From contig JAPLQI010000064.1 of assembly GCA_026399755.1 (NCBI GenBank), positions 1 through 61,939 on the forward strand: a DNA stretch of 61,939 nucleotides, read 5' to 3'. The notes under the pieces were generated by a model. The model did no database searches and was not told where the DNA came from. It saw only the letters and a list, made by a program, of their open reading frames with translations. Source of the stretch: Pseudomonadota bacterium (GTDB lineage: Bacteria > Pseudomonadota > Gammaproteobacteria > Burkholderiales > Chitinibacteraceae). The translations under genes were made by a program, and so were the position numbers. Positions 10,796-20,682 of this stretch are shown piece by piece. Within the stretch, counting starts at the first letter, position 1; each line of letters starts with the position of its first letter.

Positions 10796-11221
10796 TTATA
10801 CAGCAGATGCAGCTGAAGCATGTTTTTTCACAGGTGCTTTATGTGCTGCTGAGGCTGCAGAAGCTGCGTGCTTTTTCGCCTGAGCTTTTTGTACTGAAGA
10901 CGCTGCAGATGCTGCGTGTTTTTTAGCCTGAGCCTTTTGTACTGAAGACGCTGCAGAAGCGGCGTGCTTTTTCGCCTGAGCCTTTTGTACTGCGGATGCT
11001 GCAGAAGCGTGTGCTGGCGCTTTATGTACGCCGGATGCCGCTGATGCAGCAGTATGCTTTTTAGCATGCGCTTTCTTGCTTACATGCTTGCTTGCAGAAG
11101 CACTCACCTTAGCGGAGTGGGTTTCAGCCTTAGCAGGGGTAGAGGCTGTTTCTGCTGCCATACCAAAAGCGGTAGTCGCAACAAATACAGTAGCAGCAAG
11201 GGTTGTCAGCAGTTTGTTCAT
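10796..11221 (-). CDS. Asr-like Ala/Lys/His-rich repetitive secreted protein
   Basis: A 141-residue protein with a signal peptide (MNKLLTTLAATVF...AAE) and a mature part made almost only of Ala, Lys, Ser, His and Val. A 15-residue unit, VQKAQAKKHAASAAS, is repeated three times in tandem, with degenerate copies on both sides. The composition and the recurrent KAQAKKH motif resemble the periplasmic acid-shock protein Asr of enterobacteria, a basic, intrinsically disordered protein induced at low pH. The AGGAAG ribosome-binding site supports the start. The resemblance is compositional, so homology is uncertain. Confidence 0.6.
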   Translation of the reverse strand: MNKLLTTLAATVFVATTAFGMAAETASTPAKAETHSAKVSASASKHVSKKAHAKKHTAASAASGVHKAPAHASAASAVQKAQAKKHAASAASSVQKAQAKKHAASAASSVQKAQAKKHAASAASAAHKAPVKKHASAASAV

Positions 11222-11909: not shown

Positions 11910-13082
11910 ATGATGCAGCAAGCACATCTTCCCCCGAAACGCTTTTATTCGCTTGATGCACTCAGAGGCATCGCCGCGCTCTGCGTGGTGTTTTGGCACT
12001 GGCAGCATTTCTTTTTTGCTGGCACCACAGCGGGGAAATTTGATCTTGAGCGGCTGCCTTTTTCTGATGGCTTATCGCTGCTTTATACTAAGGGCTGGCT
12101 GGCGGTTGATTTATTTTTTAGCCTGTCTGGCTTTATTTTTTATTGGCTCTATTCCAAAAAAATTGCCCTAAAGGAAATCTCTTCAAGTCAATTTTCCTTA
12201 TTGCGATTTTCCAGACTTTACCCCCTGCATCTTGCCAGCCTATTGATGGTGGCCATCGGCCAACTATGGGTCAACCATGCGCGAGGGGCTTACTTTGTTT
12301 ATCCCTATAATGATGTCAAACATTTTTTGCTTAATATTTTGTTTACGTCTTCTTGGGGCTTTGAGCAGGGCCACTCATTTAATGCCCCAATATGGTCTGT
12401 TTCTGTAGAAGTTCTTTTATATATTATTTTCTTTAGCTGCTGCCGCCTCTTGCCTGTTAGAGCGTTTATTTTAGCGGCGATATCCATCATGGGCTTTCAG
12501 CTTATTCAAGACTATTACCAGCCCATAGGCAGGGGCCTTGGCTCCTTCTTTTTGGGCGGTCTTGTGTTTATCGCTTACCAAACTGTGCTCAAATCAAAGC
12601 ACTCCGTATCACTGAGTAAATCAGTATTTTTAATTATGCTTTTTGCATGGTCCATTACTATCACCACCCTGCTACAAAAAATAGACTTCAATTCACTCTC
12701 TATTTTTCATTTTCACTTACCGCATAGGATGCTGGAGCTAATCGATTCATGGCCCGTGGTGGTGCTTTTTCCGCTTAGCATTTTATCGCTAGCGCTGTTT
12801 GAAACGCAGCATGGCCCATTGGCTAAGCGCATTGCGTTTCTAGGCGATATTTCATACTCATCCTATTTACTGCATTTTCCGCTGCAACTTTTATTTTCCA
12901 TGCTGCTGAGCTATTTCTCATTCGGCCAAGATATTTATTACTCCCCTTGGCTGATGTTGCTATTTTTCACCCTACTAATAACAATAAGCTTTATTAGCTT
13001 TAGAAATTTTGAAATGCCCGCCCAAAAGCGGTTACGGCAACTCAATATATCGAGAAAAAAAACAGTGCAAAGCCCTATATAG
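11910..13082 (+). CDS. Acyltransferase 3 family membrane protein (OafA/YrhL-like)
   Basis: About 390 residues with roughly ten membrane segments. The N-terminal RFYSLDALRGIAALCVVFWH carries the family Arg-Gly and His residues, and the later SISVEV-like SVSVEVLLY and SYSSYLLHFPL are typical of acyltransferase 3 proteins. These inner-membrane enzymes O-acetylate or acylate surface glycans. AAAGG seven bases upstream favours the ATG at 11910 over 11874. It is not inside a polysaccharide cluster, so the acceptor is unknown. The gene is more AT-rich than its neighbours. Confidence 0.87.
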   Translation: MMQQAHLPPKRFYSLDALRGIAALCVVFWHWQHFFFAGTTAGKFDLERLPFSDGLSLLYTKGWLAVDLFFSLSGFIFYWLYSKKIALKEISSSQFSLLRFSRLYPLHLASLLMVAIGQLWVNHARGAYFVYPYNDVKHFLLNILFTSSWGFEQGHSFNAPIWSVSVEVLLYIIFFSCCRLLPVRAFILAAISIMGFQLIQDYYQPIGRGLGSFFLGGLVFIAYQTVLKSKHSVSLSKSVFLIMLFAWSITITTLLQKIDFNSLSIFHFHLPHRMLELIDSWPVVVLFPLSILSLALFETQHGPLAKRIAFLGDISYSSYLLHFPLQLLFSMLLSYFSFGQDIYYSPWLMLLFFTLLITISFISFRNFEMPAQKRLRQLNISRKKTVQSPI

Positions 13083-13260
13083 CAGAGCCTTAAACCCGCC
13101 TCTTTCCATAAAAATAAAACGGCGTAAATCCATAGCAGCACAATAGCCACGGCCCTTTCCAGCACCGCCCTTTTGTCTTGCACCAACTTATTACTTTGAT
13201 TTAGCCGCCTATAGCACGCAGGATTGGGGCTTCGTCTAAATAAAGGCCACCCTCAGAATC

Positions 13261-14670
13261 ATGCTGCGCTATCTCTCCTTTCGCACGCTGCTGATTATTG
13301 GCTTTGCCTTAGTCGCTCTTACCCCTTCCGCCGCCTTGGTGCAGCTGCGTTACGGCTTGGCTGGGCTGACCATTCAGGCACAGCAGCAGCAGGAGCAGGC
13401 GAGCGCTTGGTCTAATGCTTCGCAGCAAACCCAAGAGCAGGCGCTGCATTTAGAGCGGGCCAGTCGACAGTTGCTGATCTTGCCTGAAACCACGTTTTTC
13501 AATGCCGCACACAGCGCCAATGCCAAGCTAGAAGCGGCCCAGAAAATCTTTATGCACGAGCCGCTGCTCAAAGAAAGCAGCGAGAGCATCAGCCAGCTAT
13601 TAGCTCAGATCGCCGCCAATACTCGCCAACACAAATCGCAAGTGAATCGCTTATTTAGCCAGCTCAATGAGCAGCTTAAAAATCAAGATCAATTAATCGA
13701 GCTGCAATTAGCAAAGCAGCGCCTACAGTGGCTAGAGAGCGTTCACAGCAAACAAAAGCAAGTAGATATGCTGGCCATTTTGTCGCCAATTGCCGCACTT
13801 AGCATGGCCATTATTATGGCGGTCATGTTTAGCAGACCCATTGCACGATTAAAACTAAAAATCACCCAACTAGCGCAAGGCCAGCGTGGGCAAGACTGGC
13901 AATTATCTGGCCCAGCCGATTTGCAAGGATTGGCTAAATCGCTGGCGGAGCTGGATTTACGCTTGGTGCAGCTAGAGGCGCAAAAAGCGCAGTTTTTCCG
14001 CCATGTGTCGCACGAATTAAAAACCCCTTTGGCGGTGATTCATGAAGCCTCGGCGCTGCTGCAAGAAGAAGTGCTGGGCAGCTTAAATACCCAGCAAAAA
14101 GAAATCAGCGCCATGGTGCAAAGCAATGTGCAGACCTTGCGTCAGCGTGTGGATGCGCTACTGGCACACGACGCAGGGCGCTGGCTTTCGGCCGAACTGG
14201 TGATTGCGCCTTTGCTGCTAGAGCCATTTTTAGCTCAGCGATTACAACAATGGCGCTTATTACTCACCAAAAAATCCCTGCGTATTTCGCTATCAGGGCT
14301 CGCCTCGCCCAGCTACGCCGATCACGCCAAACTTGGAATCATTCTGGACAACTTACTGGTCAACGCCATTCGCTTTAGTCCAGCCCATAGCGAAATTATC
14401 ATTCGCTATGGGCAAGATGGGCCACAAAGCTGGTTAGAAATCCAAGACCAAGGCCCTGGCGTAAATAGCGAAGATACAGAATCTATTTTTGAGCCTTTTC
14501 ACTGTGGCCCCGCCCCCAAAGGCGAGCCAGCAGGCTCTGGCATTGGCCTGACCATGGCCAGAAGCTTTGCCCAACTGATGCATGGTGATGTAGAACTTCT
14601 CCCCAGCAGCACAGGCGCTTGTTTTCGCCTGCATTGGCAGCTGGCACAGGGCCATATTGAGGGCGGGTGA
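13261..14670 (+). CDS. glrK: GlrK/QseE-like sensor histidine kinase
   Basis: A 469-residue membrane kinase: a membrane segment near the N-terminus, a periplasmic helical domain of about 150 residues, a second membrane segment near 180-200, HAMP-like linker, HisKA with the phospho-acceptor His at about 251 (FRHVSHELKTP), and HATPase with N (DNLLVNAIRFSP), G1 (DQGPGV) and G2 (GSGIGLTMA) boxes. The assignment to GlrK comes from the downstream qseG- and glrR-like genes in the usual order. The last codons and the stop lie inside a repeat that begins GGGCGGGTGA, so the natural C-terminus may have been altered. Confidence 0.8.
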   Translation: MLRYLSFRTLLIIGFALVALTPSAALVQLRYGLAGLTIQAQQQQEQASAWSNASQQTQEQALHLERASRQLLILPETTFFNAAHSANAKLEAAQKIFMHEPLLKESSESISQLLAQIAANTRQHKSQVNRLFSQLNEQLKNQDQLIELQLAKQRLQWLESVHSKQKQVDMLAILSPIAALSMAIIMAVMFSRPIARLKLKITQLAQGQRGQDWQLSGPADLQGLAKSLAELDLRLVQLEAQKAQFFRHVSHELKTPLAVIHEASALLQEEVLGSLNTQQKEISAMVQSNVQTLRQRVDALLAHDAGRWLSAELVIAPLLLEPFLAQRLQQWRLLLTKKSLRISLSGLASPSYADHAKLGIILDNLLVNAIRFSPAHSEIIIRYGQDGPQSWLEIQDQGPGVNSEDTESIFEPFHCGPAPKGEPAGSGIGLTMARSFAQLMHGDVELLPSSTGACFRLHWQLAQGHIEGG

Positions 14671-15046
14671 AACCCATGCGTGCTAAGCAAAGCCCAAAAG
14701 GTCTTTTTTGTGCCTTTGGCACGTTGATTTTGGTGCGGTATCCCCGCGGGGGACTCCCTTTCTTGAACGGCCAAGAAAGGAAGCAAAGAAGGCCGCCCCT
14801 CGAAACACGAAGGCTCCTCCACTGCGGACAATCGAGTCGGCGGCGGGCGAGACTCGCTCGTGCCTCGCTGCCTCTGGCCGAAACCCCGCCCCGCTTGTTT
14901 CAAGGGGACTTTAAAAAGCCCTATGCCAAGACCGTGGTTGTTATGCTTTTCGCTGTTTGCTAATGAAAAAACAATTTGCTTAGCAAGAATGGAGTGCACC
15001 CCGCGTGCAATACTAAAAAATACACAGCTTGCACCCGCCCTACGAT
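14656..15046. repeat. Dispersed repeat, copy 1, between glrK and qseG
   Basis: Starts GGGCGGGTGAAACCC at the glrK stop and ends CACCCGCCCTACGATGATTC. The core (about 14715-14960) contains TTTCTTGAACGGCCAAGAAA, GCGGACAATCGAG and CCCCGCCCCGCTTGTT. An inverted, diverged copy lies at 17186-17556 downstream of glrR. Open frames in this stretch on both strands look spurious. Confidence 0.8.
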
Positions 15047-15097
15047 GATTCAATGCTTGTGTGGTAGCCCCATGGCATCTGCCTAAGTTGTTAGAAA

Positions 15098-15166
15098 TGG
15101 GGTGAAACCCGCAGGTTTATATATCAAAAAGCGAATACACGGCGGGTAAGCCCCGCCCCAACACGA
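15098..15166. repeat. Palindromic REP-like element
   Basis: GGGGTGAAACCCGC near 15098 is partly mirrored by GCGGGTAAGCCCCGCCCC near 15148-15166. It is a diverged member of the GGGCGGGTGAAACCCGC family seen elsewhere in the window. Confidence 0.5.
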
Positions 15167-15248
15167 TTTACTTTGCATCACATAAACTTACGTGATGCGT
15201 ATTGGGCATAAAAACTTGCTCACCCTTATTGCTTGCACAAGGTCATTC

Positions 15249-15740
15249 ATGAAGCACCTTATTGATCGCTCTTCTTTAAAATACCTCCTTCTTTGCAGCA
15301 TCAGCCTTGTCGGCTGCGTCAGCTTGCCTCCTCCTCCTGCCGAGCCAGCCTTAGTACCACCACCCAAAGCCGTCGTCATTACCCCTGCATGTAATTTTGA
15401 TGAGGGGCTGGCTAAGCTGGCAACGCCCATCGCTACTTCTGAATGCAGCAGTGACAAACTACTGGCACTTGCCCAGCAGATGATGAGCAACCACGCCGAT
15501 ATTAATCGCGTGCAAAGCCAGCTCGATCAGCTGCAAGCCCAAGCGCTCAGCCCCGCCAGCCGCCAATTTGCTCAGCTCTTAGCCAGCCAGCTTGCCGAGC
15601 GCAAACGGCTAAATGCTCTGCTAGACAAACAAAATATCGCCACCAAAGAGCAGCAAAAACGTGCCAATGATCTAGCCGCCAAGCTCGATGCCTTTAAAGA
15701 TATGGAAAAAGAAATGCTGGCGAGGAATAAAAAACCATGA
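15249..15740 (+). CDS. qseG: QseG-like lipoprotein
   Basis: About 163 residues from the ATG at 15249, with a lipoprotein signal peptide ending in LVGC (about residue 22). A proline-rich linker and a long helical, Gln/Leu-rich coiled-coil region follow. In enterobacteria QseG is an outer-membrane lipoprotein that contacts the QseE/GlrK sensor. The position between a GlrK-like kinase and a GlrR-like regulator supports this role; sequence resemblance beyond the overall shape is weak. The start codon of glrR overlaps its stop (ATGA). An upstream start at 15192 would spoil the signal peptide. Confidence 0.65.
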   Translation: MKHLIDRSSLKYLLLCSISLVGCVSLPPPPAEPALVPPPKAVVITPACNFDEGLAKLATPIATSECSSDKLLALAQQMMSNHADINRVQSQLDQLQAQALSPASRQFAQLLASQLAERKRLNALLDKQNIATKEQQKRANDLAAKLDAFKDMEKEMLARNKKP

Positions 15741-17092
15741 CTGCAAAAATCCTACTGGTCGATGATGATCCCGATCTGCTACGCCTCGTTTCCATTCGCT
15801 TGATTGCCGCTGGCTATGAAGTCACCGAAGCCGCCAGCGCCGAGGCCGCTCTGAATGCACTGGCCGTGCATCGCGCCGATTTACTCCTCAGCGATTGGAA
15901 GCTCCCCGGCATGGATGGCATGGCGCTGTTTGAAGAAGTGCGTCGCCGTTATCCCGCCCTGCCGGTGATTATGCTCACCGCCCACGGCACCGTGCCAGAT
16001 GCGATTGAAGCCATCAGCCACGGCATGTTTGCCTATTTAATTAAGCCCTTTGATGGCAAAGCGCTGCTAGATAAAGTCAGCCAAGCGCTGCTCTTAAGCA
16101 GCCCGCCTAGCCTCAACCATCACGATGGAAATCAAACTTGGCGGCAAGGATTTATCAGCTGCAGCCCCGTAATGGACGAGCTATTGGCCGAAGCGCGGCT
16201 GGTAGCCGTCACCGATGCCAGCGTGCTGATTCGCGGCGAAAGCGGCACGGGTAAGGAGGTGCTGGCCCAAGCCATACACCGCGCCAGTCTGCGGGCCAAG
16301 CGCCCTTTTATCGCCGTAAATTGCGGTGCGATTCCAGACAATCTACTTGAAAGCGAATTATTCGGCCACGAAAAAGGCGCATTTACCGGCGCCAGCCAAA
16401 AGCAAAATGGCTTGTTTTTAGAGGCCGATGGCGGAACGATTTTCCTCGATGAAATTGGCGACATGCCGCTACCGCTGCAAGTTAAATTGCTGCGCGTCTT
16501 GCAAGAGCGCGAAGTGCGGCCTGTTGGCGCGGGCCGTGCCGTGCCGGTGAATGTGCGGGTGCTCTCGGCCACTCACCGCGATTTACAATCTTTGCTACTG
16601 AATGGCTCGTTTAGAGAAGATTTGTTTTATCGCCTGAATGTGGTGTCTTTAGCGCTGCCATCGCTGACCGAGCGGCGAGAAGATATTCCACTATTGGCGC
16701 GGTACTTTTTAGAGCAGGTGGTTGAGCGCTACGCCAAGACCGACTGCCACTTTGCCGCCGACGCGCTCAGCTTTTTAAGCACCGCCAACTGGCCAGGCAA
16801 TATTCGCCAGCTCTCGAACCTCGTTGAGCAATGCTGCGTACTGGCCACCGGCCCCATGATCACGCTGGCCCAAGTACAAAAAGCCATGGCCACCGAATCG
16901 GCCGCCATCTTGCCACTGGCCGAAGCCAAACGCCTATTTGAGCGCGATTACCTCGAACGCCTGCTGCGCCTCACCGGCGGCAATGTCAGCGACGCCGCAC
17001 GCCTAGCCGACCGCAACCGCACCGAATTCTACCGCCTCCTCCAAAAACACGACCTCGCCCCCGCCGCGTTTAAAGCGGATATCAGCGCCTAG
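15737..17092 (+). CDS. glrR: GlrR/QseF-like sigma54-dependent response regulator
   Basis: A 451-residue NtrC-family activator. Residues 1-120 are a receiver with the phospho-acceptor Asp in LLLSDWKLPG. The AAA+ domain has Walker A GESGTGKE (about 167), the sigma54-contact loop GAFTGA (about 214) and Walker B FLDEIGD. The C-terminus is a Fis-type helix-turn-helix (GGNVSDAARLADRNRTEFYR). It overlaps qseG by four bases. Two sigma54 promoters with GlrR-type binding sites lie within 2 kb downstream, which suggests local targets. No other sigma54 activator is encoded in the window. Confidence 0.88.
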   Translation: MTAKILLVDDDPDLLRLVSIRLIAAGYEVTEAASAEAALNALAVHRADLLLSDWKLPGMDGMALFEEVRRRYPALPVIMLTAHGTVPDAIEAISHGMFAYLIKPFDGKALLDKVSQALLLSSPPSLNHHDGNQTWRQGFISCSPVMDELLAEARLVAVTDASVLIRGESGTGKEVLAQAIHRASLRAKRPFIAVNCGAIPDNLLESELFGHEKGAFTGASQKQNGLFLEADGGTIFLDEIGDMPLPLQVKLLRVLQEREVRPVGAGRAVPVNVRVLSATHRDLQSLLLNGSFREDLFYRLNVVSLALPSLTERREDIPLLARYFLEQVVERYAKTDCHFAADALSFLSTANWPGNIRQLSNLVEQCCVLATGPMITLAQVQKAMATESAAILPLAEAKRLFERDYLERLLRLTGGNVSDAARLADRNRTEFYRLLQKHDLAPAAFKADISA

Positions 17093-17135
17093 GCAATATT
17101 TATTTAAAGCTCAACAACCCATGTTGCAGCGCAGA

Positions 17136-17159
17136 TAGATCCTGTGACGACAGGATCTA
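17136..17159 (+). terminator. Hairpin downstream of glrR
   Basis: TAGATCCTGT and ACAGGATCTA form a perfect 10-bp stem with a 4-base loop. It lies 44 bases after the glrR stop and lacks a clear T run, so it may be a terminator or a transcript-end stabiliser. Confidence 0.45.
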
Positions 17160-17185
17160 AATAAAGAGTAGAAGGCGTTTTTGTA

Positions 17186-17556
17186 TGGTGGGTGAAATTC
17201 CGAACGCGCTAACCACATAGTTTTTTCATTGGCAAACAACGAAAAATGTATTGGCCATGCTCTCTGCACGGGGCTTTAGAGTCCCCTTGAAGCACGCCGA
17301 AACGAGGAACAAGCGGGGCGGGGTTTCGGCGAGGACTGTTTGAGCGAGCGCAGCGAGCGAGTTCCGCAGCCGCCGCCTCGATTGTCCGCAGAGAGGGGCT
17401 TTCGTGCTGGCCGGGGCGGACTTCTTTGGCTTCGTTTCTTGGCCGTTCAAGAAAGGAAGGCCCCCGCGGTGGCTACCGCTCCAAAACTAACGTGCCGAAG
17501 GCACTAAAAAGATCTTTTTGCCTCTGCTTAGCATACAGAGGCGTACACCCGCCCAA
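17186..17556. repeat. Dispersed repeat, copy 2, inverted, downstream of glrR
   Basis: Read on the minus strand this follows copy 1 (14656-15046) from GGGCGGGTG through GGCACGTTAGTTTTGG, TTTCTTGAACGGCCAAGAAA and CCCCGCCCCGCTTGTT. The two copies face each other around qseG-glrR. They differ at many positions, so the duplication is not recent. Confidence 0.8.
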
Positions 17557-17674
17557 AGATGATTCAATATTTGTAATCGCACCATGCCACACCGCCTAAA
17601 TTAATAGGAGTAGAGGCAGTCCAACAATAGATGCAGCGCTTAAATCACAAGTCATAAAGCCGCCCCTCTTTATT

Positions 17675-17756
17675 CGTCGTGTTTTAGCAACAGCCTTTCC
17701 ATATACAAATCAAACACTTACAAAAACACCCCGAATCCTGTCGTGTATTAGCGACA
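17675..17756 (+). promoter_or_regulatory. Paired GlrR-type binding sites upstream of first secreted-protein gene
   Basis: TGTC-N10-GACA at 17739-17756 is an exact match to the GlrR/QseF recognition pattern known from the enterobacterial glmY promoter. A degenerate copy (CGTC-N10-AACA) begins at 17675, 64 bp upstream. The proximal site is centred about 74 bp before the -24 element. Confidence 0.75.
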
Positions 17757-17819
17757 GATACAAATCATCCCTGCTAAACGAAAAACAGTAAGTCATTGAA
17801 TAAAAAAGGATTTTAAAAC

Positions 17820-17834
17820 TGGCACGGTGCTTGC
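17820..17834 (+). promoter_or_regulatory. Sigma54 (-24/-12) promoter
   Basis: TGGCAC, five bases, then TTGC followed by T is a near-perfect sigma54 promoter. Transcription would begin about 12 bases after the -12 C, near 17846, leaving a leader of about 49 bases before the ATG at 17895. Confidence 0.88.
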
Positions 17835-17850
17835 TGTAGGTAGTGCATCG

Positions 17851-17864
17851 AACGAGAAATCGTT
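17851..17864 (+). promoter_or_regulatory. Conserved leader hairpin with GAAA loop
   Basis: AACGA-GAAA-TCGTT can fold into a small stem with a GNRA tetraloop immediately after the predicted transcription start. The same element occurs at 18921-18934 before the paralogous gene, with an A-U to G-U change in the stem. Confidence 0.5.
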
Positions 17865-17894
17865 TATCTGATTACCCACGCAAGGAAACACACC

Positions 17895-18275
17895 ATGAAA
17901 AAGAATCTACTGATCGCTGCCCTTTTTGCAACTTGCGCTGCTACTGCAGCGTGGGCTAGTTCCACAGATGCTTCTGCTCCTGCAAGTGTACGTGCTGATG
18001 CCAATGATGCATCTGTACCAACCCGTATCGTGGCCGATGCAAATGATGCTTCCGTACCTACAAATATCGTAGCCGATGCAAATGACGCTTCTACACCGAG
18101 CAGCTTGCGTGCGGATGCCAATGATGCTTCTGTGCCTGCCAGCATCGTAGCCGAGGCAACTGATGCTTCTGCTCCAAGCAGCTTACGTGCGGATGCCAAT
18201 GATGCTTCCGTGCCTACAAGTATCGTAGCCGATGCAACGGATGCTTCTACTCCAGCAAGCGCCAAAATCGTTTAA
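17895..18275 (+). CDS. Secreted Asp/Ala-rich 12-residue-repeat protein
   Basis: A 126-residue protein with a signal peptide ending TAAWA (about residue 21). The mature part is about eight tandem copies of a 12-13-residue unit of the form ADANDASVPTxIV; it is acidic, has no Cys and is probably disordered or a simple repeat fold. A strong AAGGA ribosome-binding site and a strong terminator show it is a real gene. The promoter is sigma54-type with GlrR sites. I do not recognise the family. A paralogue with the same leader and signal peptide lies at 18966. A periplasmic or surface role under envelope stress is inferred only. Confidence 0.85.
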   Translation: MKKNLLIAALFATCAATAAWASSTDASAPASVRADANDASVPTRIVADANDASVPTNIVADANDASTPSSLRADANDASVPASIVAEATDASAPSSLRADANDASVPTSIVADATDASTPASAKIV

Positions 18276-18303
18276 ACGCTCTTTCTGCAAAGCATAAGCA
18301 ATA

Positions 18304-18335
18304 AAAAAACCACGACGAAAGTCGTGGTTTTTTTT
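18304..18335 (+). terminator. Rho-independent terminator of the repeat-protein gene
   Basis: AAAAAACCACGAC and GTCGTGGTTTTTT form a long stem around a GAAA loop and end in eight T residues. Confidence 0.93.
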
Positions 18336-18429
18336 CGTCCTCTTTAAGCCCAAGCCCTCAGAAAAATAAAACACACCCACAGAGCATGAATACCTACACA
18401 ACTCCTAAGAAGAAAAAGGTCATCTTAGG

Positions 18430-18514
18430 ATGGGTTAGGCCGCTCTTGATGCTCATTAGGGCGCTAATCTATGTCGCGCATAACCCACCATGACACTGCA
18501 CTGCGGTGGGTTAT
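18430..18514. repeat. Dispersed TGGGTTA...TAACCCA palindromic repeat
   Basis: TGGGTTAGG near 18431 and two arms ATAACCCACC (18480) and GGTGGGTTAT (18505) make overlapping inverted repeats. This type of element is common between genes in proteobacteria. The reading frame over 18471-18680 has no ribosome-binding site and is probably not a gene. Confidence 0.55.
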
Positions 18515-18744
18515 GGCTAGGATACGGCAGCACACATATTTGATACATTTTCTAGCCCAGCCCACCCTAGGGATGTATTCCTTATTCATTTCAACTTGTG
18601 CAGATACTTTTACCCGCAGAGCCTTCCTACACATAAACGCCTTGGTTACAGGTGACTTAAACCATCTACTTAGTGATTAAAAACTTGCCCCATCCCAAGT
18701 CACTCGCTAAGCCCCTCTCTGCAGGACAATTACAAATCTCAAAC

Positions 18745-18826
18745 TGTCGTCAGCCAACAACGTAATTTACTCATTAAAATCAATGCCTTATAAAAAACAG
18801 CCGCTTTGTGTCGTGCAATAGAGACA
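18745..18826 (+). promoter_or_regulatory. Paired GlrR-type binding sites upstream of second secreted-protein gene
   Basis: An exact TGTC-N10-GACA lies at 18809-18826 and a degenerate site starting TGTC lies at 18745, again 64 bp upstream. The distance from the proximal site to the -24 element (about 74 bp) is the same as at the first gene. Confidence 0.75.
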
Positions 18827-18890
18827 GTCTGTCATTAGCTCACACCAAAAAAACACACCCAAGCCATTGAATATAAACGAATTTAAGTCA

Positions 18891-18905
18891 TGGCACGGCA
18901 ATTGC
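18891..18905 (+). promoter_or_regulatory. Sigma54 (-24/-12) promoter
   Basis: TGGCAC, five bases, TTGC followed by T: a second near-perfect sigma54 promoter, with a leader of about 49 bases that carries the conserved GAAA-loop hairpin at 18921-18934. Confidence 0.88.
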
Positions 18906-18965
18906 TACAGTAAGTGTGTAGACGAGAAATCGTTTGTACGTTTACCACACTAAAGGAAGTGCACC

Positions 18966-19223
18966 ATGAAAAAGCATTTACTGATTGCATCCATGATTGC
19001 CAGTTTCGCAGCCACAGCTGCTTGGGCAGATATTTCAAAATGGGTGGATAACTCAGATATCCCTAAGGTTGCAGAAATGCATGCCGATGCTCGCAGCACC
19101 ACTCCACCAGACATGATGACCGATACACCAAGAAAGCCTAACCAGGCAGACGACGCTTCCGCCCCCGACAGCCGCGATCATCGCCCACCTGCCCCGCAAA
19201 ATGATGATAGCTTCGGTGATTAA
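18966..19223 (+). CDS. Small secreted protein, paralogue of the repeat protein
   Basis: An 85-residue protein whose signal peptide (MKKHLLIASMIASFAATAAWA) closely matches that of the gene at 17895. The mature 64 residues are acidic and Pro/Asp-rich, and only a DDASAP fragment recalls the repeat unit of the neighbour. AAAGGAAG before the ATG and a terminator after the stop support a real single-gene unit. The promoter region is a duplicate of the neighbour's. The family is unknown to me. The conserved export signal with a diverged cargo suggests duplication followed by rapid change. Confidence 0.82.
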   Translation: MKKHLLIASMIASFAATAAWADISKWVDNSDIPKVAEMHADARSTTPPDMMTDTPRKPNQADDASAPDSRDHRPPAPQNDDSFGD

Positions 19224-19239
19224 GCCGTAACAAAAAATA

Positions 19240-19270
19240 AAAAAACCACGATTTTGATCGTGGTTTTTTT
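19240..19270 (+). terminator. Rho-independent terminator
   Basis: AAAAAACCACGAT and ATCGTGGTTTTTTT pair around a TTTG loop and end in a T run. It is similar to the terminator at 18304, so the whole transcription unit appears duplicated. Confidence 0.92.
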
Positions 19271-19654
19271 GTGGCTTGCGATATATAACAAAAAAATTTC
19301 ATTCTGCGATCACAAAAAATAGTCTTATCGCATAAAACAGCTTACTCACAAGCCTGCTATAAAAAATAACTCAATGATTTCGGCGCATCCGTTCTTATGG
19401 CAAAAGTACAACAACTCTATAAAGCACCTCATCGCATCAAGTCAGGCATTTAATCGTAATGCCGACCCCACCTTTGCAAACATCAAACTATGGTGGCGGG
19501 TGCAACCCGCGAGCAATGCTGAAAAAAATGTAATGCATATTATTGACTAAACTTGATACTTATAGAGTTATAAAGAATACTCCCCAAAAAACGACCGTCG
19601 TTTCTTGCGAGTAACAATAATAACCATCTACCACTTTAAACAAGGAAACATAAT
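19271..19654. other. Intergenic region with a half REP motif
   Basis: About 380 bp without a gene. GGCGGGTGCAACCCGCGAGC near 19493 is a REP-like palindrome half. A TTGACT or TTGATA -35-like element near 19543-19555 with an AT-rich -10 could be the promoter of the LprI-like gene. No sigma54 element was found here. Confidence 0.5.
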
Positions 19655-20026
19655 ATGAAAAAATTGCTCATCACCCTGCTGCTCTGCACTTCAAGCCTAA
19701 GCTATGCAAACTCCGCTTGCGATGTACCAAAAAATGATTTTGACGGTCTGTATTGCCTGAATAAGGTTTATCAAGAGGCAGACAAAGAGCTCAATGAAAA
19801 TTTTAATAAATTAAAAGCAAAACTCGACAACAATGGCAAAAGCAGCCTAAAACAAGGCCAATTAGGCTGGATGAAAGAGCGCAATAGCAATTGCTCCAGA
19901 AAAGACAGCAGCGGCTTTTACGTTAATCTAGATTGCGCCACCAGCACAACAATCCAACGCTCACAATTCCTGCAAGACCGAATTCGCGAATGCGCCAGCT
20001 CGGGCTGCCAAAATAGCAAGCTGTAA
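19655..20026 (+). CDS. LprI-like (DUF1311) secreted protein
   Basis: A 123-residue exported protein with a signal peptide ending SYANS. The mature part has six Cys residues and the DUF1311/LprI pattern: an N-terminal Cys, a YxEADKELNxxF helix, a QLGWMKERNSNC segment and terminal paired cysteines. LprI of Mycobacterium inhibits lysozyme; many homologues are uncharacterised. AAGGAAA before the ATG supports the start. The protein should be periplasmic and disulfide-bonded. It sits alone between a sigma54-driven gene and a tetR gene. Confidence 0.8.
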   Translation: MKKLLITLLLCTSSLSYANSACDVPKNDFDGLYCLNKVYQEADKELNENFNKLKAKLDNNGKSSLKQGQLGWMKERNSNCSRKDSSGFYVNLDCATSTTIQRSQFLQDRIRECASSGCQNSKL

Positions 20027-20041
20027 TCGGCCTTCATACGC

Positions 20042-20067
20042 AAAAGCCCGCTTATCTAGTGGGCTTA
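20042..20067 (-). terminator. Terminator of the tetR gene
   Basis: AAGCCCGCT and AGTGGGCTT pair around a 5-base loop, and on the minus strand the stem is followed by TTTTG. It may also end the LprI-like transcript on the plus strand. Confidence 0.6.
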
Positions 20068-20115
20068 CTGCAAATGGTCTTTATTAAAAATTCGGAATAT
20101 TTAAATAAAATCGAT

Positions 20116-20682
20116 CTAAGTCCTAATCAAAGTACTCAACATATGCAGCAATCCATTAATTGCCCTTTTAAAAGAGGCATCGCTATTTTCTGCCCTAGCC
20201 AGCACATAGCCGCCTTGTAGTGCCGAGACAATCATCGTGGCCAGATCGGTAGCGTTAAAATCAATCTGGAACTCTTGATTCTTCTGCCCTTGAAGTAGCA
20301 CTTCAGTCAGCCGCTGCTGCAAGTGAGTGAATGTGTTAGCTATTGGCAAGCTAAGCGCTTCATTAGCAATAATATCTGGGTCTTGCGCCAGCCTCCCCAT
20401 TCTGCAGCCACGTAATACCTCGCGCTCCCTCTGCAAATAGGCAGAGATCTGCGCAAGTGCACTGCCCTGCAAGCTCAGCTCAGAATCTGCCTGCGCCTGC
20501 ATTTCGGCGGCACTGCGCTCTATCGCCGCCAACGCCAGCGCCGCTTTACCGCTGAAGTGGTGATACATGCTGCCCTGCCCAGCACCGGCTTTTTGTTGAA
20601 TGGCCTTGGGGCTCATGCCCACATAGCCCCGCTCCCAAAGCAATTCTTGGGTACTCACGATTAAATTTTCTTTTGCATCCAT
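20116..20682 (-). CDS. TetR-family repressor of the divergent MFS gene
   Basis: About 188 residues from the ATG at 20682. The N-terminal helix-turn-helix (GYVGMSPKAIQQKAGAGQGSMYHHF) is typical of TetR regulators, and the C-terminal part is a helical ligand-binding domain. It is transcribed away from an MFS transporter gene. A TTG upstream at 20697 would overlap the operator at 20692-20709 and is unlikely. The usual logic is ligand-induced release of repression of the transporter. The ligand is unknown. Confidence 0.88.
   Translation of the reverse strand: MDAKENLIVSTQELLWERGYVGMSPKAIQQKAGAGQGSMYHHFSGKAALALAAIERSAAEMQAQADSELSLQGSALAQISAYLQREREVLRGCRMGRLAQDPDIIANEALSLPIANTFTHLQQRLTEVLLQGQKNQEFQIDFNATDLATMIVSALQGGYVLARAENSDASFKRAINGLLHMLSTLIRT

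Follow-up and report, generated by a model that had tools for sequence, protein, structure and literature searches.

Duplicated sigma54 promoters with GlrR-type sites beside glrR in a Chitinibacteraceae genome: probable direct targets of GlrR behind a promoter with differing output genes

The stretch of DNA analysed here (the window) comprises 61,939 base pairs (bp) of contig JAPLQI010000064.1 from a bacterium of the family Chitinibacteraceae. Downstream of glrR, the gene for the sigma54-dependent response regulator of a GlrK-QseG-GlrR-type system, it carries a tandem pair of genes, both encoding a small acidic protein for export and each with its own sigma54 promoter and GlrR-type sites. As judged from sequence comparison, the two genes are very probably direct local targets of GlrR, and their control region the form taken in this genus by an older promoter adjacent to glrR with an exchangeable output gene. 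An earlier note on this DNA had proposed an undescribed local GlrR regulon. That proposal is supported by the comparisons presented below, but it proved too narrow, as the promoter beside glrR spans lineages that have different targets behind it.

Anatomy of the two units

Each unit has an exact TGGCAC-N5-TTGC promoter, an exact TGTC-N10-GACA site upstream of it, at a gap to the -24 element of 63 bp in unit 1 and 64 bp in unit 2, and a degenerate site with two mismatches located 64 bp further 5' (Table 1). These elements had been described in the earlier note together with the GAAA-loop leader hairpins and the terminators; both units indeed fold at these places, and the equation of TGTC-N10-GACA with the known GlrR/QseF site matches the published consensus (PMC8745638; PMC6075780). 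A consensus sequence for integration host factor (IHF), which the note had overlooked, sits between the distal and the proximal site in each unit. From the distal site through the signal-peptide codons, 191 of 299 ungapped columns (64 %) are identical between the two units, which suggests that they arose by duplication. The signal peptides were assigned by eye and, for unit 1, also by a crude hydrophobicity rule. The repeats of the unit 1 protein, for which 12 residues had been given, actually have a period of 39 bp or 13 residues, with a higher order of 78 bp or 26 residues. An AlphaFold model of this protein (mean predicted local distance difference test score 51.6; predicted template modelling score 0.43) was too weak to inform function. 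As a hint, this low-confidence model of the product of 17895-18275 has one beta strand per 13-residue repeat, and the protein might be a solenoid; that it may bind cations or coat a surface is a guess.

Taken singly, the elements say little. TGTC-N10-GACA alone was found at 15 places in the genome versus 24 for a control read backwards. The -24/-12 promoter has four exact matches in the window, and two of them (38567 and 44960, minus strand) fall within genes. Because neither exceeds chance and half of the exact promoter matches are intragenic, neither the palindrome nor the -24/-12 consensus was accepted as evidence by itself. A strict composite was defined as an exact site followed, after a gap of 45-75 bp, by TGGC-N7-TTGC. 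Exactly two such composites are present in the whole genome of 4.95 Mb, both of them in the units described here, while the control gave none; the genome-wide search that the note had called for thus returned only the two units, and its word local fits this genome. With the looser published consensus TGT-N12-ACA, six matches were obtained in the genome, including the two units.

Conservation in the genus

The strict composite was found in eight of the nine genomes of the genus, and in the composite of the ninth (G005) site and promoter each deviate at one position. In all nine genomes the gene of the unit 1 repeat protein is preceded by a site and a sigma54 promoter that each have no more than one mismatch, so that the refuting condition set in the note, lack of the sites in relatives with the genes, decides in favour of its proposal. 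In eight of the nine the -24 element of unit 1 lies 252 to 762 bp past the glrR stop codon. Relatives of the second protein are encoded in five of the nine genomes, four of which have an exact site and promoter ahead of the gene.

The 5-bp leader stem is kept in 13 leaders of the genus; 96.9 % of cells are paired, and two changes are double-sided. Pairing as high was reached by 15 of 500 shuffles, a figure that is not a probability since the sequences are related. A general 5' stem-loop was not upheld across the order, as 11 of 86 leaders folded at p ≤ 0.05 (mean p 0.31), and the leader stem-loop stands for the genus only. Searches of 12500-20500 with Rfam gave no match at gathering score, and none, including GlmY (RF00128), was obtained in seven relatives; E. 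coli GlmY, used as a positive control, matched RF00128 at 146 bits. No known RNA was found in the leader, and sub-threshold Rfam hits, several of them at terminators, were taken as chance.

The promoter beside glrR across the order

A glrR gene was detected in 34 of 61 relatives and, in a sample of 300 genomes from the order, in 120. In total, 145 glrR loci were compared, 33 from the first set, in which the layout was first noticed, and 112 fetched later. A relaxed rule, the exact wording of which was written after the layout had been noticed in the first set, allowed site and promoter up to one mismatch each and required the composite to lie no more than 900 bp past the glrR stop codon. Such a composite is present downstream of glrR in 86 of the 145 loci (29/33 in the first set and 57/112 in the later one), the median distance from the stop codon to the start of the -24 element being 167 bp, and at least one locus with it was found in 33 of 37 families. 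Reversed sequences gave no composite in 145 loci and Markov shuffles one in 2900; the 960 bp before glrR held none (0/145) and glrR itself one (1/145). When the same rule was applied to loci of other NtrC-family regulators (37-45 % identity), none of 69 had a composite downstream and two had one anywhere in the locus. The recognition helix of the local GlrR (RNRTEFYRLLQKH) matches that of E. coli (RNRTEFYKLLSRH), and the pattern RNRTEFY[KR]LL is shared by E. coli and 82 of the 86 loci with a composite.

The spacing of the elements follows the DNA helix. All 74 gaps of 45-100 bp between site and promoter are of 52-54, 62-66, 73-77, 83-86 or 94-95 bp, classes that differ by steps of one helical turn. 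With one gap per family (n = 29) the vector R was 0.73, a value that not one of 20,000 random sets attained. In 51 of 57 site pairs the two sites are separated by 63-68 bp. IHF sites were scored as consensus matches only: with one mismatch allowed, 54 of 87 loci had a motif in the 48-bp stretch ahead of the proximal site (7.6 expected), 45 of these 54 having it at -30 to -33, and 69 of 87 had one between the site and the promoter (12.5 expected). Such a layout is as would be expected for an enhancer-bound activator that reaches sigma54 polymerase by looping.

Genes behind the promoter

Domains were scanned in 76 downstream proteins, 10 of the 86 loci being left out. A BON domain was found in 26, a glycine-zipper 2TM domain in eight, an EF-hand in seven (some together with BON), MdoG (OpgG) in one and a glycosyltransferase domain in two. 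NCBIfam identifies one of these two, L126, as MdoH (OpgH); similarity searches added opgG in L116 and L142 and opgH in L119, L121, L139 and L148. OsmY was the best NCBIfam model for the products of L056 and L146, below its cut-off. The first open reading frame (ORF) has a hydrophobic N-terminus by the crude rule in 62 of the 86 loci, and a few loci have products off the envelope theme, such as an acetyltransferase and a DUF3563 protein. The adjacent output gene differs by lineage: BON, EF-hand, glycine-zipper, opgG/opgH or the repeat proteins of this genus. In genera g3 and g5 of the same family the product is an exported peptide of 42-48 residues with an ASAP motif, which resembles one DASAP repeat unit and is too short to settle homology.

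Promoters of the same type were also found on the other side of the system and in other settings. Bactofilin genes (Pfam) divergent from glrK have this promoter and its sites at L054 5813 (+) and, in Propionivibrio, at L223 1731 (-) and L224 1623 (-). In Neptuniibacter (L228) such a promoter, with one exact site, precedes a gene for an exported EF-hand protein that lies 5' of glrK, on the side where E. coli has glmY. A composite 5' of glrK that points away from it (L055 5346, minus strand) precedes the gene of a 470-residue protein that begins like a signal peptide and has no match in Pfam. A gene for a WecG-family glycosyltransferase, on a contig other than that of glrR, is preceded by a sigma54 promoter with a pair of exact sites (L053 5519, minus strand; G046 contig C3). 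At L059 5563 (-) and L076 5750 (+) a GlrR-type promoter after glrR is followed by a terminator-like hairpin, and no convincing ORF was seen by eye; these are candidate sigma54-driven small RNAs (sRNAs) outside the enterobacteria, for which Rfam gave no match at gathering score.

Features of the locus

The gene order glrK, lipoprotein gene and glrR is present at 13261-17092, with the lipobox recognized by eye. NF011695 was the top NCBIfam family for the local GlrR by a margin of 167 bits. The protein has the architecture of receiver, sigma54-activator and Fis-type helix-turn-helix domains, with HTH_8 at 21.9 bits for a cut-off of 22.

Table 1 Features of the glrK-qseG-glrR locus and the two downstream units (positions in the window)
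Feature	Position	Strand	Sequence	Basis and remarks
glrK (qseE), sensor histidine kinase	13261..14670	+		HisKA and HATPase_c domains; homologues 5' of glrR in loci of relatives
qseG-like lipoprotein gene	15192..15740	+	MKHLIDRSSLKYLLLCSISLVGC	From internal Met start; lipobox LVGC, by eye; position between glrK and glrR
glrR (qseF), sigma54-dependent response regulator	15737..17092	+		NF011695 GlrR top match; Response_reg, Sigma54_activat, HTH_8
Unit 1 distal GlrR-like site	17675..17692	+	CGTCGTGTTTTAGCAACA	2 mismatches; similar element upstream in loci of the genus
Unit 1 IHF consensus	17708..17720	+	AATCAAACACTTA	Perfect; position kept in relatives
Unit 1 proximal GlrR site (predicted)	17739..17756	+	TGTCGTGTATTAGCGACA	Exact TGTC-N10-GACA; conserved
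Unit 1 sigma54 -24/-12 promoter	17820..17834	+	TGGCACGGTGCTTGC	Exact TGGCAC-N5-TTGC; conserved
Unit 1 leader stem-loop	17851..17864	+	AACGA-GAAA-TCGTT	Folding; genus alignment, 2 double-sided changes
Unit 1 protein gene	17895..18275	+		126 residues; signal peptide by eye; acidic 13-residue repeats; mature isoelectric point 4.05
Unit 1 intrinsic terminator	18303..18334	+		Folding z-score -6.1
Unit 2 distal GlrR-like site	18745..18762	+	TGTCGTCAGCCAACAACG	2 mismatches
Unit 2 IHF consensus	18778..18790	+	AATCAATGCCTTA	Perfect
Unit 2 proximal GlrR site (predicted)	18809..18826	+	TGTCGTGCAATAGAGACA	Exact; exact sites precede second protein in G001, G003 and G008 too
Unit 2 sigma54 promoter	18891..18905	+	TGGCACGGCAATTGC	Exact TGGCAC-N5-TTGC
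Unit 2 leader stem-loop	18921..18934	+	GACGA-GAAA-TCGTT	Core of longer stem
Unit 2 protein gene	18966..19223	+		85 residues; signal peptide by eye; acidic; one DDASAP motif; mature isoelectric point 4.41
Unit 2 intrinsic terminator	19237..19272	+		Folding z-score -5.3

Between glrR and unit 1 lies a dispersed intergenic repeat of about 240 bp (17240-17480). Among the 40 of 162 candidates in the genome that were scored, 39 were further long matches (81-93 % identity) and one was short. An inverted partial copy (82 %) at 14735-14899 separates glrK from the qseG-like gene, which are about 520 bp apart. Directly after unit 2, positions 19655-20026 encode an exported protein with an LprI (lysozyme inhibitor) domain, upstream of which no -24/-12 match with at most one mismatch was found. 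Another repeat protein is encoded at 10796-11221 on the minus strand; it has a signal-peptide-like start, is rich in Ala, Lys and Ser, and has a period of 48 bp (16 residues). By eye this protein is basic, whereas those of units 1 and 2 are acidic.

Discussion

The anatomy of the units, their conservation, the controls, the spacing and the identity of the recognition helix are directly established. From layout and conservation we infer GlrR binding, activation, the signal and the role of the proteins. An envelope signal would be sensed by GlrK together with the lipoprotein QseG and lead to phosphorylation of GlrR. Phosphorylated GlrR would bind the paired TGTC-N10-GACA sites, and bending of the DNA by IHF would allow the activator to reach sigma54-RNA polymerase at TGGCAC-N5-TTGC. 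The products would be short mRNAs with a 5' stem-loop and a terminator of their own, from which small acidic proteins destined for the periplasm or the envelope are made.

A number of observations weigh against direct control by GlrR from a conserved adjacent promoter. The local GlrR scored 583 bits against NF011695, under the equivalog cut-off of 763, because of which the three-gene system is to be called GlrKR-like by homology and not an NCBIfam equivalog, and the product of 15192-15740 matched no QseG model, weak hits being far under the cut-off. Within the genus, both units of G003 lie about 0.68 Mb from glrR, and unit 2 of G005 has a promoter without a site, so that conservation before the second protein holds for four of its five carriers. 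In the order, the composite is missing in 59 of the 145 glrR loci, of which 13 have sites with a promoter of two mismatches, one (L181) has the site too close and 45 have no combination; none of the loci of four families (f37, f5, f15 and f24) has it. A changed helix does not explain the missing promoter, since 48 of the 59 GlrR proteins concerned keep RNRTEFY[KR]LL; their GlrR sites may be present elsewhere. In a separate named set, two of 11 GlrR-like loci (50-64 % identity) had a downstream composite, namely those of the beta-proteobacteria Herbaspirillum (L221) and Chitinimonas (L222), the latter seemingly a genome already counted. The compared loci are related, and the locus counts are hence not independent. 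Finally, no exported first ORF was recognized by the crude rule in 24 of the 86 loci; seven of these have opgG or opgH.

Other explanations can be put forward for the two units. As NtrC-family sigma54 activators are numerous, the promoters could respond to a different enhancer-binding protein that recognizes a similar palindrome (e.g., a PrsR-like one), with the proximity of glrR accidental, and the composites away from glrR, before the WecG-family gene of G046 and in the units of G003, would fit such a protein. We nevertheless consider it unlikely, as the adjacency to glrR recurs in 33 of 37 families, none of the 69 loci of other NtrC-family genes has the composite downstream, the motif equals the published GlrR/QseF site and the recognition helix is as in E. 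coli. The tandem sites could also mainly serve autoregulation of glrK-qseG-glrR, the exported proteins being passengers. The QseF-dependent glmY promoter of P. mirabilis drives co-transcription of glmY with qseEGF (PMC8745638). The promoters described here, in contrast, are located 3' of glrR and point away from it, and the 960 bp before glrR are free of composites in all loci (the region before glrK was scanned in some loci only), which makes this explanation very improbable.

It is also quite unlikely that the RNA itself is the product, i.e., that the units specify sigma54-driven sRNAs like GlmY, with the leader stem-loop and the terminator as their parts and the ORFs as secondary features. 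The similar layout of the E. coli glmY promoter, the two loci without a convincing ORF and the leader hairpin kept in the genus with its double-sided changes speak for it; the ORFs, however, are conserved as proteins, leader folding is weak beyond the genus, and the Rfam searches that recover GlmY in E. coli gave nothing at gathering score in 12500-20500 or the seven relatives.

Direct control by GlrR of an adjacent gene is most likely part of a more general arrangement, in which GlrK-QseG-GlrR is an envelope-sensing system with an exchangeable output gene next to it and glmY its enterobacterial version. With moderate confidence we would go further and regard the system as an old envelope sensor whose built-in promoter cassette next to glrR takes up different envelope effectors in different lineages: OsmY-like BON, EF-hand and glycine-zipper proteins, proteins for periplasmic-glucan synthesis, bactofilin and acidic repeat proteins, and GlmY in the enterobacteria. 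GlmY would then be a derived output, one of many, and the ancestral task of GlrR the direct control of periplasmic or surface proteins.

A conserved and readable promoter beside glrR in 33 families provides a concrete list of likely direct GlrR targets and suggests that the core role of GlrKR is in envelope and osmotic homeostasis. It also becomes testable whether a single regulator exchanges its output gene under a constant enhancer geometry, and the loci provide a set of natural enhancer-promoter distances that differ by whole helical turns.

Comparison with known systems

GlrKR and its sigma54/IHF promoter are already known. The system, also named QseEF, has been studied in enterobacteria, for which glmY and rpoE are stated as direct targets; at glmY, QseF binds three sites with the help of IHF, and it acts on envelope regulators (PMC6075780). 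GlrK-GlrR is assigned to beta-proteobacteria by KEGG in another paper, the accessible part of which gives no target (PMC8895600), and GlrR is listed in Acidithiobacillia (PMC12194929). As to the word undescribed in the earlier note, no report of a conserved GlrR promoter beside glrR with lineage-specific envelope outputs was found in the open-licence literature in PubMed Central, which is weak evidence of absence.

In relatives, the same promoter most often precedes a gene for a BON-domain protein of the OsmY/DolP type; this genus differs by having repeat proteins, in which the domain scan gave no BON match. rpoE encodes a sigma factor and is not adjacent to glrR. Its QseF-activated P2 promoter in E. 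coli likewise depends on sigma54, has QseF-like sites and belongs to the cell-envelope theme (PMC6075780). Another close parallel is the E. coli glmY promoter, controlled by QseE/QseG/QseF and IHF, which likewise combines TGTC-N10-GACA with a -24/-12 promoter and adjoins the glr genes. In the same scan as used above it showed exact sites at -230, -197 and -134, IHF consensus sequences at -177 and -58, and the promoter at -27 with one mismatch; two of its sites are 63 bp apart with an IHF consensus between them, as in the units described here. The output of glmY is an sRNA, and its promoter, with three sites, lies upstream of glrK, whereas the present units are duplicated genes for exported proteins 3' of glrR with one exact and one degenerate site each.

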